Below, in pieces: positions 36,966 to 40,404 of a DNA stretch of 64,000 nucleotides (position 1 is its first letter; every line of letters starts with the position of its first letter). The position numbers were made by a program, and so were the translations under genes. Under the pieces are notes generated by a model. The model had not been told where the DNA came from. It did no database searches and was given only the letters and a program-made list of their open reading frames with translations. The DNA is taken from positions 310,001 to 374,000 of the forward strand of contig NZ_WYEU01000001.1 in NCBI RefSeq assembly GCF_015143595.1. The letters run 5' to 3'. This stretch comes from Sneathiella sp. P13V-1 (lineage in GTDB: Bacteria > Pseudomonadota > Alphaproteobacteria > Sneathiellales > Sneathiellaceae).

Positions 36966-38171
36966 ATGGACCTTTCATTCACAAAAGACGATAACGCCTT
37001 CCGCGAGGAAGTCATCGAGTTTATTAATGAAAATCTGACAGATGATTTAAAACAAAAAATGGCAGAAACCAGAAACAGTTATCTGCCTAAAGAAGATCAT
37101 GAAAGATGGCAAAAGGCTCTCCATGCAAAAGGTTGGGCTGCACCGGATTGGCCCGTTGAATATGGCGGACCCGGATGGACAACCACTCAGAAATATATTT
37201 TTGAAACTGAGATGGCGAACCACAACGCACCTGGCATTATGCCATTCGGCATTAAGATGTGTGCCCCTGTTCTGATGAAATTTGGCAGTGAAGAACAAAA
37301 GCAACGCTTCTTGCCTAAAATGCTCGCGAGTGAAGACTGGTGGTGTCAGGGGTATTCTGAGCCAGGCTCTGGATCTGATTTGGCATCACTTGCGTGTAAA
37401 GCTGAAGACAAGGGTGACCACTTCCTCGTCAATGGATCAAAAATCTGGACAACCCTTGCACAATATGCGGACTGGATTTTCTGTCTCGTACGTACATCCA
37501 ACGAAGGCAAGCGTCAGGAAGGCATTTCCTTCCTTTTGATCGACATGAAATCCGAAGGTATCACTGTCGATCCAATTTACACGGTTGATCAGCCGATTGA
37601 AGGCTTTCAGGAAGTAAACCAGGTATTTTTCCAGGATGTAAAAGTACCTAAAGAAAATCTGGTGGGTGAGGTCAACAAAGGCTGGACATACGCCAAGTAT
37701 CTTCTGGAATTTGAACGCGGCAACGCCTATGCCGGTCGCCTGAAGCGCGGTGCCAAGAAAATTCGCGCCATTGCCAGCAACGAAGTAGAAGGCGGCGTGC
37801 CGGTTATTGAAAACACTGAATTCCGCAGCAAACTTGCCAAGCTGGAAGTTGCGATCGAAGCACTGGAAATGACCGAACTTCGTATCCTCAGCAAACTGAC
37901 ATCCGGACAGAATATGGGCCCTGAATCATCGTTGATGAAATGCCGCGGAACTGATCTCTATCAGGAAGTTGTGGAACTCGCTATGGAAGCTGTTGGCAGC
38001 TATGCCATGCCATTTATCCCGTTGCGTCCTGGTGCCAATGACGAAGGCGTTGGCCCTGACTATGCAAATGGATCCGCTCCGCGATACTTTAATGCACGTA
38101 AAGTATCCATTTATGGCGGTTCCAACGAAATTCAGCGGAACATTATGGCCAAACTCATTCTTGGCCTTTGA
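36966..38171 (+). CDS. Acyl-CoA dehydrogenase
   Basis: 401 residues of the FAD-dependent acyl-CoA dehydrogenase family, which introduces the alpha-beta double bond in acyl-CoA and passes electrons to ETF. Signatures are WWCQGYSEPGSGSDLASL (about 119-136), the NGSKIWTT strand, and the C-terminal FNARKVSIYGGSNEIQRNIMAKLILGL (FAD-binding GGxxEIQ). The long C-terminal insertion with FIPLRPGAND is typical of the sterol/branched-chain (FadE-like) group. A GAGGG site precedes the ATG. ETF-QO, encoded at 47.9 kb, would accept its electrons by way of ETF. Confidence 0.93.
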   Translation: MDLSFTKDDNAFREEVIEFINENLTDDLKQKMAETRNSYLPKEDHERWQKALHAKGWAAPDWPVEYGGPGWTTTQKYIFETEMANHNAPGIMPFGIKMCAPVLMKFGSEEQKQRFLPKMLASEDWWCQGYSEPGSGSDLASLACKAEDKGDHFLVNGSKIWTTLAQYADWIFCLVRTSNEGKRQEGISFLLIDMKSEGITVDPIYTVDQPIEGFQEVNQVFFQDVKVPKENLVGEVNKGWTYAKYLLEFERGNAYAGRLKRGAKKIRAIASNEVEGGVPVIENTEFRSKLAKLEVAIEALEMTELRILSKLTSGQNMGPESSLMKCRGTDLYQEVVELAMEAVGSYAMPFIPLRPGANDEGVGPDYANGSAPRYFNARKVSIYGGSNEIQRNIMAKLILGL

Positions 38172-38222
38172 TAAATTGCGGCAGATGGTTTCAAATCATC
38201 TGCCCATTCTCACGCGGGTACT

Positions 38223-38897
38223 ATGTTAAAACGCGAAGACCTGACCGAAGAACGTGTCGAAATGCTGATCAAAGAGGCCCGCAAACTAGGCCCCTTTGAA
38301 GCATTAAGCCGCGAAGAGCGCGAAGCCAACAGGCGAAATTTTCTGGACGCACGGCCTAATGACGATGACCAAGGTCTCTGGGTCTTTGGATATGGCTCCC
38401 TCCTCTGGAATCCGGCTTTCCTTTATACCGAAGACACCCCTGCACGACTCTATGGATATCGGCGGCGCTTCTGCCTGCACCTCACTATGGGACGGGGTAG
38501 CCCTGAAAAACCAAGCCTGATGCTTGCTTTGGACACCTCCGGCTCCTGTAACGGTCATGCCTTCTTCGTCAGGCCAGATCAAGTCGATAGCGAAACTACA
38601 ATCCTCTGGCGTAGGGAAATGATGTCAGGTGCCTATCAACCCAAATGGATTACCCTTTATCTTGAGGGCGGCCACAAAGTGACGGGTATGACTTTTGTGG
38701 TCAATAAAGACCATTCCCGTTACATACAGCATCTGGAAGAAGATGAAGTTGTGCGCAGGTTATCTCATGGCGAAGGGCATTTGGGCACAAGTCGGGAATA
38801 TCTGGAAAATACGGTTGCCCATTTAGAGGAAAGTCAGGTGAAGGATGTCTACCTTCACAGGCTGTGCCGCAAACTGCGGGAAAAATACCCCTTATAA
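38223..38897 (+). CDS. ChaC-type gamma-glutamylcyclotransferase
   Basis: 224 residues. The GLWVFGYGSLLWNPAFLY segment (about 50-67) is the ChaC/GGCT substrate loop, followed by GYRRRFCLHLTMGRGSPEKPSLMLALD. ChaC enzymes cleave glutathione to 5-oxoproline and Cys-Gly. The acid residue expected near the middle is plausible in WRREMMSGAY. It begins 52 bp after the acyl-CoA dehydrogenase stop on the same strand and may be in the same transcript. Confidence 0.9.
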   Translation: MLKREDLTEERVEMLIKEARKLGPFEALSREEREANRRNFLDARPNDDDQGLWVFGYGSLLWNPAFLYTEDTPARLYGYRRRFCLHLTMGRGSPEKPSLMLALDTSGSCNGHAFFVRPDQVDSETTILWRREMMSGAYQPKWITLYLEGGHKVTGMTFVVNKDHSRYIQHLEEDEVVRRLSHGEGHLGTSREYLENTVAHLEESQVKDVYLHRLCRKLREKYPL

Positions 38898-38905
38898 AAA
38901 AAATG

Positions 38906-38932
38906 TCCCGGCACGAGGGGTCAGTGCCGGGA
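38906..38932 (-). terminator. Hairpin with terminator character on the minus strand
   Basis: A 9-bp perfect stem TCCCGGCAC / GTGCCGGGA with a 9-nt loop lies just past the chaC stop. A run of A precedes it on the plus strand, so the T run follows it only on the minus strand; it would stop leftward, not chaC, transcription. Confidence 0.6.
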
Positions 38933-38944
38933 TCATATTATCAG

Positions 38945-39110
38945 CTGGTATTTGGTTTCCCATCTACCAGAGGGGTACTAGGGTACTTGGTACTACAATA
39001 CGCAAAGGGTACTTCTATACTACTTCCATACTCGGGTACTTGGTACTAGCGGATATCGGGGGGATATCCTGCCTGATCGGATGCGCGCCCGATCAACTGA
39101 ATACAGTATT
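38945..39110. repeat. GTACT-repeat, dyad-rich intergenic element
   Basis: Within this span GTACT occurs six times (38975, 38983, 38990, 39009, 39036, 39043), and the 15-mer GGGTACTTGGTACTA is present twice (38981 and 39034). Around it are CTGGTA / TACCAG (38945-38970), two GGATATC blocks (39051-39069), a 7-bp stem TGATCGG / CCGATCA with 8-nt loop (39074-39095), and the palindrome AATACAGTATT (39100-39110). The region lies between convergent genes, so it is not the promoter of either. The following 39120-39310 is AT-rich and has no supportable gene. Confidence 0.6.
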
Positions 39111-39324
39111 GCCGCGGGGCCTTAAAAATTCAAGTAAATTAAAATTTTACAATAAATTCATCAACGAAATTAAATGTAGTATAATAGTAATATTTCACTG
39201 TCTCAGGTTGATTACTTTGGTGAATATTTAAGTTTCATAAGTAATTATTTGGTTACACTTTAGTCAGTATATGTAATTTTTTTATTACACACATCCGAAT
39301 CACCGCTCAAAACTAATGGACAAC

Positions 39325-39351
39325 AAAAAAGGCGCCCCGAAGAGCGCCTTT
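39325..39351 (-). terminator. Terminator of the VPLPA-CTERM gene
   Basis: A 7-bp stem AAGGCGC / GCGCCTT with an 8-nt loop, followed on the minus strand by TTTTTTG, 26 bp past the stop of the gene at 39377-40054. Confidence 0.85.
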
Positions 39352-39376
39352 CAAATTGTGTATGTTTCCCGAAGTC

Positions 39377-40054
39377 TTATGCAGATTTACGACGACGACG
39401 TCCGAGGAAACCAAGACCAGCAAGCGCTGCGCCGAACAGCATTACTGCTGGTGGCAGAGGAACTGCTGTCAAGCGAACATCATCGATGTAACCACCGAGA
39501 CGGTCAGCTGTACCAGTTGCTTCAAAGATCACATCAACAGATGCGTCAGCTGCAAGTGTGAAAGTCCGTTCGATCAATGTCCAACCGTCGCTCGCAATAC
39601 CAGTTACGAAGTCTGGGCCAACAGTTGTGTTTGTCAGAACAAAGTCGATACCATTGGTACCGGAGTTATTTGTACGACCACGGTACATGAATGAGAATTT
39701 ATACTGACCTGCAGTCAACTGAACGCTCTGCTGCATGTCAGAGTTTGTTGTTGTTGCCTGGCCATCACCACCGCGGTTCGGGTCACTGTCCAGCTCAACT
39801 TTGTTGAGGCCTTCAAATGCAGTGGAACCACCGATGTTACCGCGTTGAATTTCGATACCAGTACCTGTGAAAGATTCCCAACCAGGAATGTTCTGATATA
39901 CACCCCAATCTGGGTTACCCAGTGGGTCGATACCTGTCATATCTTCAAAACCACCGTTCTGAAGAAGGTTGACGCCCATTGCGGATGCTGGAGCAGCTGC
40001 AAAAGCAACTACGGAAATAGCAGCAGCAGCAACAAGTGCTTTTAGCTTTTTCAT
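39377..40054 (-). CDS. Secreted DUF642-like protein with VPLPA/PEP-CTERM sorting tail
   Basis: 225 residues. A signal peptide (about 1-25) ends in ASA. The mature protein starts NLLQNGGFED, a DUF642/CBM-like opening, and runs as a beta-sandwich (PGWESFTGTGIEIQRG, YKFSFMYRGR, GYIDDVRL). The C-terminus is a sorting signal: VPLPPAVMLFGAALAGLGFLG then RRRRKSA, i.e. short motif, membrane helix, basic cluster, as in VPLPA-CTERM/PEP-CTERM proteins handled by an exosortase. No exosortase is in this window. AGGAG lies 8 bp before the ATG. It should be surface or matrix located; function unknown. Confidence 0.85.
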   Translation of the reverse strand: MKKLKALVAAAAISVVAFAAAPASAMGVNLLQNGGFEDMTGIDPLGNPDWGVYQNIPGWESFTGTGIEIQRGNIGGSTAFEGLNKVELDSDPNRGGDGQATTTNSDMQQSVQLTAGQYKFSFMYRGRTNNSGTNGIDFVLTNTTVGPDFVTGIASDGWTLIERTFTLAADASVDVIFEATGTADRLGGYIDDVRLTAVPLPPAVMLFGAALAGLGFLGRRRRKSA

Positions 40055-40404
40055 TTAAGATCTCCTACTCGTCTTGCCCGGCAATATGAAAATTCTCAAA
40101 ATACGTTTGAGAAAAGCATCGCACCCTGTTCAGGTACGCGTAACATAAACAACTCTATACAACATATTCATGCTGCGCGGATCTGTTAATACTTTATTAA
40201 CCAATTGATACTTGCAGGGGATGTTTCGAGTCAACACAACTTTACCAAAGCAGCTTAAAACAAGGTATTTTTTGCCGGATATCGACAAAATTACAGCTAT
40301 TATGATTAACGAAAATGGTTAATTTCTAATATTTAAGGTTAATACGAAATCGGTTTCATATTATTTATGTTGCAAGTGCGAATCACATATGGATATGCAA
40401 TTAA
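40055..40404. other. AT-rich upstream region of the VPLPA-CTERM gene
   Basis: 350 bp without a supportable gene. It is AT-rich with several TTAA and TTAACC words (around 40196-40200, 40308-40345), but none spaced as a classical CtrA box (TTAA-N7-TTAA). It presumably holds the promoter of the leftward VPLPA-CTERM gene and the 3' end of DUF1501. Confidence 0.4.

Follow-up and report, generated by a model that had tools for sequence, protein, structure and literature searches.

Introduction

In the parts of the published accounts used for this comparison, GsrN, the general stress sRNA of Caulobacter, is described with six tandem cytosines in its 5' loop and with targets that carry G-rich sites; its gene is under sigma-T, and homologues found by BLASTn are limited to Caulobacteraceae (PMC5869019). 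The SmelA075 and SmelA099 families of Rhizobiales, as far as the account drawn on here describes them, form several hairpins, each with a C-rich loop of the anti-Shine-Dalgarno type (PMC3927594), and in the corresponding section on Agrobacterium PmaR it is an accessible C-rich single-stranded loop that binds the targets (PMC6234868). Decoy RNAs such as CsrB/CsrC and CrcZ are outlined in the excerpts used as binding and sequestering several copies of a regulator (PMC5027483, PMC4063720). For Caulobacter, the excerpt on the CrfA sponge and SisA-D describes an alphaproteobacterial RNA that titrates sRNAs with an anti-Shine-Dalgarno type motif (PMC12559287).

Here, a stretch of 64,000 nucleotides from Sneathiella sp. 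P13V-1 (the window) was analyzed, in which a preliminary description had pointed to repeated GTACT words and stacked palindromes behind chaC. Judged from sequence comparison, these repeats and dyads are almost certainly parts of one small-RNA gene on the minus strand, from about 39098 to 38896.

The predicted RNA resembles GsrN in being an alphaproteobacterial sRNA with a C-rich 5' loop (here that of hairpin 2), a resemblance and not a homology; it differs in its repeat array, none being mentioned for GsrN in the sections compared (PMC5869019). Where the available description of SmelA075/SmelA099 gives CCUCCUCCC in three or four hairpins (PMC3927594), two of the four hairpins of the RNA described here carry C-rich loops (CCCCC and a CCCC-containing one), and a linear array separates the two. 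With PmaR it shares a C-rich loop, here predicted to be mostly unpaired, but PmaR consists of a single long, spoon-like stem bearing a large loop, and the part of its description considered mentions no array. For the array, in contrast to CrfA as outlined in the excerpt above, searches of the own genome gave no complementary RNA. The likeness to CsrB and CrcZ lies in the many copies of one short motif within one RNA. The motif is GGA in CsrB/CsrC and A-rich in CrcZ, whereas the word here is AGUAYC and its cognate protein is putative.

Results

Repeat words and dyads in the gap behind chaC

The gap is convergent, as had been described: chaC ends at 38897 on the plus strand and the VPLPA-type gene (40054-39377, minus strand) heads toward it. 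The six GTACT words start at 38975, 38983, 38990, 39009, 39036 and 39043 and lie within 73 bp (38975-39047). The plus strand of the window holds 23 GTACT words in total, and in none of 2000 random placements did six of them fall within 73 bp. The 15-mer noted as present twice, GGGTACTTGGTACTA, occurs in exact copies at 38981-38995 and 39034-39048. The preliminary description had proposed a search for multiple copies; in the whole genome, with up to two mismatches, GGGTACTTGGTACTA has one match beyond this gene compared to 12 for the reversed control, and the words are therefore not dispersed. On the opposite strand, the six GTACT words read as an array of AGUAYC words.

All five dyads that had been listed are present, and four of them correspond to hairpins of the predicted RNA. 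Those at 38906-38932 and 38945-38970 were picked up by a repeat search. The dyads at 39051-39069 and 39074-39095 are absent as such from this search, which pairs 39055-39069 with 39079-39093, and form two hairpins both in the predicted fold and in the consensus structure. The fifth, a palindrome at 39100-39110, looks incidental, because it overlaps the predicted -10 box and is not conserved among relatives.

A terminator-like hairpin at 39327-39352 (minus strand), 3' of the VPLPA-type gene, separates it from the RNA gene, which is read from that strand too. Two GTAAY-N6-RTTAC dyads, possible regulator sites, were observed at 39273-39288 and 39241-39256, upstream of the predicted promoter. Dyads of this form are found upstream in five of the 12 members of the family; in six of the other seven, the cut stretch is too short, or nearly so.

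Parts of the predicted RNA gene

The gene was compared in 12 members, i.e., 11 genomes and the additional record L064, which are mutually related and whose alignment blocks were trimmed by eye. All 12 share the same order: CTTG, 21 bases, ATACT, hairpin 1, hairpin 2, the array, hairpin 3, the terminal hairpin and a U-rich tail. The coordinates in the window are given in Table 1.

Table 1. Predicted parts of the small-RNA gene and its upstream region in the window.
Feature	Position	Strand	Evidence
AT-rich stretch, upstream of predicted promoter	39135-39300	-	sequence; 82% identity to G029 across query bases 17-421 (421-base block)
Predicted -35 box TTGAAT (CTTG at 39134-39131)	39128-39133	-	CTTG invariant in 12/12, always 21 bases before ATACT
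Predicted -10 box AATACT	39105-39110	-	ATACT invariant in 12/12; GATACT in 10/12 members
Hairpin 1, kept as structure	39074-39095	-	both-side changes in 6/10 consensus pairs
Hairpin 2, GGATATC-CCCCC-GATATCC, C5 loop, nearly fixed	39051-39069	-	7 consensus pairs standard in 12/12; both-side changes in one
AGUAYC array	38974-39047	-	six AGTACC copies without mismatch in the window; usual distance between words 7-8 nt
Hairpin 3, kept as structure	38945-38970	-	94% pairing in the outer six pairs across the 12 members
Terminal hairpin, CCCC-containing loop, then U8; predicted terminator	38896-38936	-	extends into chaC stop codon; eight-pair core standard in 12/12

By conservation alone, the arrangement CTTG-N21-ATACT points to a promoter belonging to the gene itself: its words and their distance are invariant in 12 of 12 members and the spacer sequence varies. 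In the window, the predicted promoter consists of TTGAAT, a 17 bp spacer and AATACT, and transcription would be predicted to start at about 39098. These boxes are unlike the sigma-EcfG type promoter, whose consensus is GGAAC and cGTT, which sets the gene further apart from gsrN. The strongly AT-rich stretch noted earlier is present; that it lies upstream of a minus-strand promoter had been overlooked. A generic promoter scan did not list this predicted promoter (eight of 12 consensus bases compared to nine required), and the only promoter-like site it gave here, at 39206-39178, is another site, with 1.6 such sites expected by chance. The predicted terminator was likewise not listed by a generic terminator scan, which allows loops of at most eight bases, its own loop having nine. 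It has a stable stem and U8 in the window; in several members the U tract is broken.

Folding, covariation and coding potential

The whole RNA folds better than 150 shuffled sequences in all 12 members (z -3.9 to -7.5). In the window, the fold compared with shuffles gave z -3.7 for the minus strand and z -2.1 for the plus strand. The check for conserved folding with covariation that had been proposed turned out positive, as hairpins 1 and 3 carry compensatory changes, which among 12 related members are not independent of each other. When the arms of hairpin 3 were re-dealt among species, its outer six pairs were formed at a mean of 83% compared to the observed value, which was reached by one in 5000 re-dealings. 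From this result and the both-side changes in hairpin 1 it follows that hairpins 1 and 3 are conserved as structures. The eight-pair core of the terminal hairpin is invariant at seven of its eight pairs across the 12 members, and given this invariance and that of the pairs of hairpin 2, these two hairpins are conserved almost letter by letter. Their letters would thus appear to be under selection, either for pairing or for recognition. Their C-rich loops are predicted to be largely accessible, with unpaired fractions of 0.63-1.00 for hairpin 2 and 0.88-1.00 for the terminal loop.

The predicted RNAs range from 186 to 367 nt in length and share no common reading frame of at least 15 amino acids. 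Such frames differ in place and sequence among the 12 RNAs, two of which have none at all, and a protein-coding reading was therefore rejected. Taken together, the comparison shows a conserved unit that is predicted to be structured and non-coding, with promoter-like and terminator-like ends.

A tandem array of variable length

The arrays contain 4-27 AGTA words each, compared to shuffle means of 0.3-1.3 in the 12 members. The number of AGTAYC copies ranges from one in G009 to 26 in G006, the window having six. Among 162 distances between NGTA words, 70 are 7, 37 are 8 and 17 are 3. The antisense word GRTACT does not occur in any of the 12 arrays. The commonest unit is AGTATCAAGTACCC (22 of 71 tabulated units), followed by AGTACCAAGTACCC (9 of 71), and in G006 and G028 AGTATCAAGTACCC is repeated almost perfectly. 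AGTA words and the 7-8 nt spacing survive in arrays whose units have diverged, i.e., those of the window, G007, G011 and L064. In the predicted folds, AGUA words often pair with one another, and their mean unpaired fraction is 0.23-0.48. Taken alone, arrays fold clearly better than shuffles (z < -2) in four of the 12 members, and that of G009 folds worse (z +1.1). In seven of the 12 members, including the window, TTGCGTA breaks into the array.

Distribution of the gene

The gene is conserved in relatives, contrary to the refuting condition set in the preliminary description, being present in 11 of 24 genomes of the genus. A blastn search of these 24 genomes with a 421-base block (E ≤ 1) gave matches in 14; 11 of them lie at one homologous locus, and those in G001, G002 and G030 are weak and at other places (E 0.36-0.75). 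Two half-gene models, R1 and R2, found the same 11 genomes strongly and once each (R2 E ≤ 1e-10, R1 E ≤ 2.6e-13), E values to be expected since the models were built from these members; weaker model matches (R2 E 0.10-0.82; R1 E 0.04 and 0.08) were taken as chance. In nine of ten homologous loci chaC is found within 1.5 kb, and in the tenth, G011, at about 2 kb, and it lies near the gene in all 11 carriers. A relative of the VPLPA-type gene was matched by blastn in four of the ten loci.

In a ChaC tree of 24 rows (22 from the genus and two outgroups, G027 and G030 giving no ChaC match at the cut-off), the 11 genus non-carriers group together with a support of 100/100. The carriers fall outside this group and are not resolved as one clade. 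Presence of the gene needs two state changes on this tree, and none of 500 shuffles needs as few. The DNA after chaC in G001, G002 and G003 contains no such RNA gene; in G001, a frame of 268 amino acids, tentatively read as glycosyltransferase-like, begins 37 bases past the chaC frame.

A search of genome_contigs with the pattern of the terminal hairpin returned seven records (four Sneathiella, one Sneathiellales, two Alphaproteobacteria), five of which hold members identical to those of the numbered genomes; L064 is additional and L061 contains just an end of the gene. One strict pattern of the same hairpin gave no match in viral_contigs. R2 found the same 11 carriers among 25 genomes of the order, in which one genome, negative, comes from another genus. 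In 385 genomes of the class, R1 identified three carriers of the genus and a match in G252 at 31.7 bits, and no convincing member outside the genus. The G252 match was rejected as a terminator-like hairpin without an array. Diverged members may have been missed in this class search, because its filters were stricter and 11 candidates were scored per genome, compared to 150 of about 800-2300 in the genus searches.

No Rfam 15 family reached its gathering score in positions 38000-40400 of the window. The best match over the gene, NsiR1 (26.8 bits compared to 39), was rejected, being below gathering and not recurring in the ten homologous loci, where the only match to exceed gathering belongs to a tRNA that lies outside the gene. 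A literature search found no description of such an RNA, which does not prove that it is unpublished. As judged from these comparisons, there is very probably a genuine small-RNA gene at this locus; in the genomes searched it is confined to part of one genus, and its repeat array is unusual and varies in length.

Search for partners of the array

The complement of the array, AGGGTACTTG, occurs six times in the own genome, once inside this gene, compared to nine times for the reversed control, and the contexts inspected show no shared arrangement. No targets with long complementarity to the array were found; the counts of both GGGTACTTGGTACTA and AGGGTACTTG in the own genome are below their controls. 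AGTAYCAAGTAYC was searched in 18 of the 24 genus genomes, nine carriers and nine non-carriers; G006 and G028, whose long arrays would fill the list of matches, were omitted, as were G002, G010, G027 and G030. Of its 21 matches, 16 are at this gene and five elsewhere, compared to 11 for the control. In these genus and own-genome searches, the motif and its complement show no enrichment outside this gene, and no partner or target for the array was found.

Three AGTAYC words in close succession were identified in eight of 24 genomes, compared to none for the control, and all of them are at this gene apart from two places. At G007:C71:12327-12345 (L131 1501-1519), three AGTACC words lie between the stop codon and the terminator-like hairpin of another gene. 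At G020:C1:687089-687108 (L119 1501-1520), a tandem GATACTC, a word resembling the -10 box of the RNA gene, lies upstream of a reading frame. Within the window, AGTAYC has 37 matches, six of them in the array, compared to 23.7 expected, and none of 100 shuffles reaches 37.

Discussion

The preliminary description had left three readings side by side: a small RNA locus, a cluster of binding sites for a regulator and the remnant of a mobile element. The small RNA locus is the one that finds support, from the conservation of the promoter words, the covariation in hairpins, a predicted terminator and the lack of a common ORF; that all features are read together from the minus strand had not been recognized. 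We propose that the gene's own promoter would yield a trans-acting non-coding RNA, about 200 nt long, in which four hairpins surround a central AGUAYC array and a terminator closes the transcript, transcription being inferred from the comparison. The two hairpins with fixed sequence would present C-rich loops that may pair with G-rich sites or ribosome-binding sites of mRNAs, a role suggested by analogy with the C6 loop of GsrN and with the multi-loop anti-Shine-Dalgarno RNAs of Rhizobiales, for which we see the chances as evenly balanced. Several copies of a partner, either an RNA-binding protein or another RNA, would bind to the repeated sites of the array, which mostly follow each other at 7-8 nt, and the number of repeats would then set the capacity. 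That the array is such a multi-site platform or sponge is put forward tentatively, as somewhat short of an even chance. A small-RNA gene with at least one of these two roles is the reading that we regard as probable. In a more specific form, which is on the unlikely side, the RNA would be a sponge with a hypervariable tandem repeat: an RNA-binding protein would recognize AGUAYC words 7-8 nt apart, and species would tune titration by gain or loss of units (one to 26 words), the array being framed by two fixed C-rich hairpins that pair with mRNAs. The sites of the array may not be free, because many AGUA words are paired with each other in the predicted folds.

This pairing is also where a structural role of the array would start, in which the self-complementary GUAC words form a ladder of 4-bp helices with small internal loops, or link RNA molecules. 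It agrees with the predicted folds, where most AGUA words are in pairs and their partners are usually other GUAY words, and with the base that follows GUA in the first word, which in 64 of 71 units is one that pairs with G (C or U). However, in 16 of the 71 units the last base of the second word is neither C nor U, which breaks that pair, and the two-thirds of arrays that do not clearly fold better than shuffles, with G009 at the far end, also speak against it; we consider this role unlikely. Alternatively, the hairpins could be functional and the array a neutral, slippage-prone spacer (VNTR) within the RNA. The wide range in AGTAYC copy number fits such a spacer, as do the near-perfect AGTATCAAGTACCC repeats of G006 and G028, which recent expansion would leave behind. 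Drift alone would, however, erode the AGTA words and their spacing, which persist in the diverged arrays, and a neutral spacer, too, is improbable. The direct repeats and their regular spacing would suit iteron-like DNA sites for a DNA-binding regulator, but a conserved promoter precedes the words, RNA hairpins with compensatory changes flank them and the predicted transcript includes them, and this reading is very unlikely. Patchy presence in the genus is what a mobile-element remnant or a chance cluster would have in its favor. Against both stand the constant neighbourhood of chaC, the clustered presence on the ChaC tree, the conserved structure, a single strong copy per genome and, with one strict pattern, the lack of matches in viral_contigs, which make them extremely improbable.

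If transcribed, the gene would represent a small-RNA family with no counterpart in Rfam; for its genus, the literature search gave no paper on small RNAs. In the RNA, an expandable repeat array would be combined with two conserved C-rich loops. The array may serve as bait for a new RNA-binding protein, and the natural series of array lengths would permit a direct test of how the number of sites relates to the capacity of an RNA sponge.
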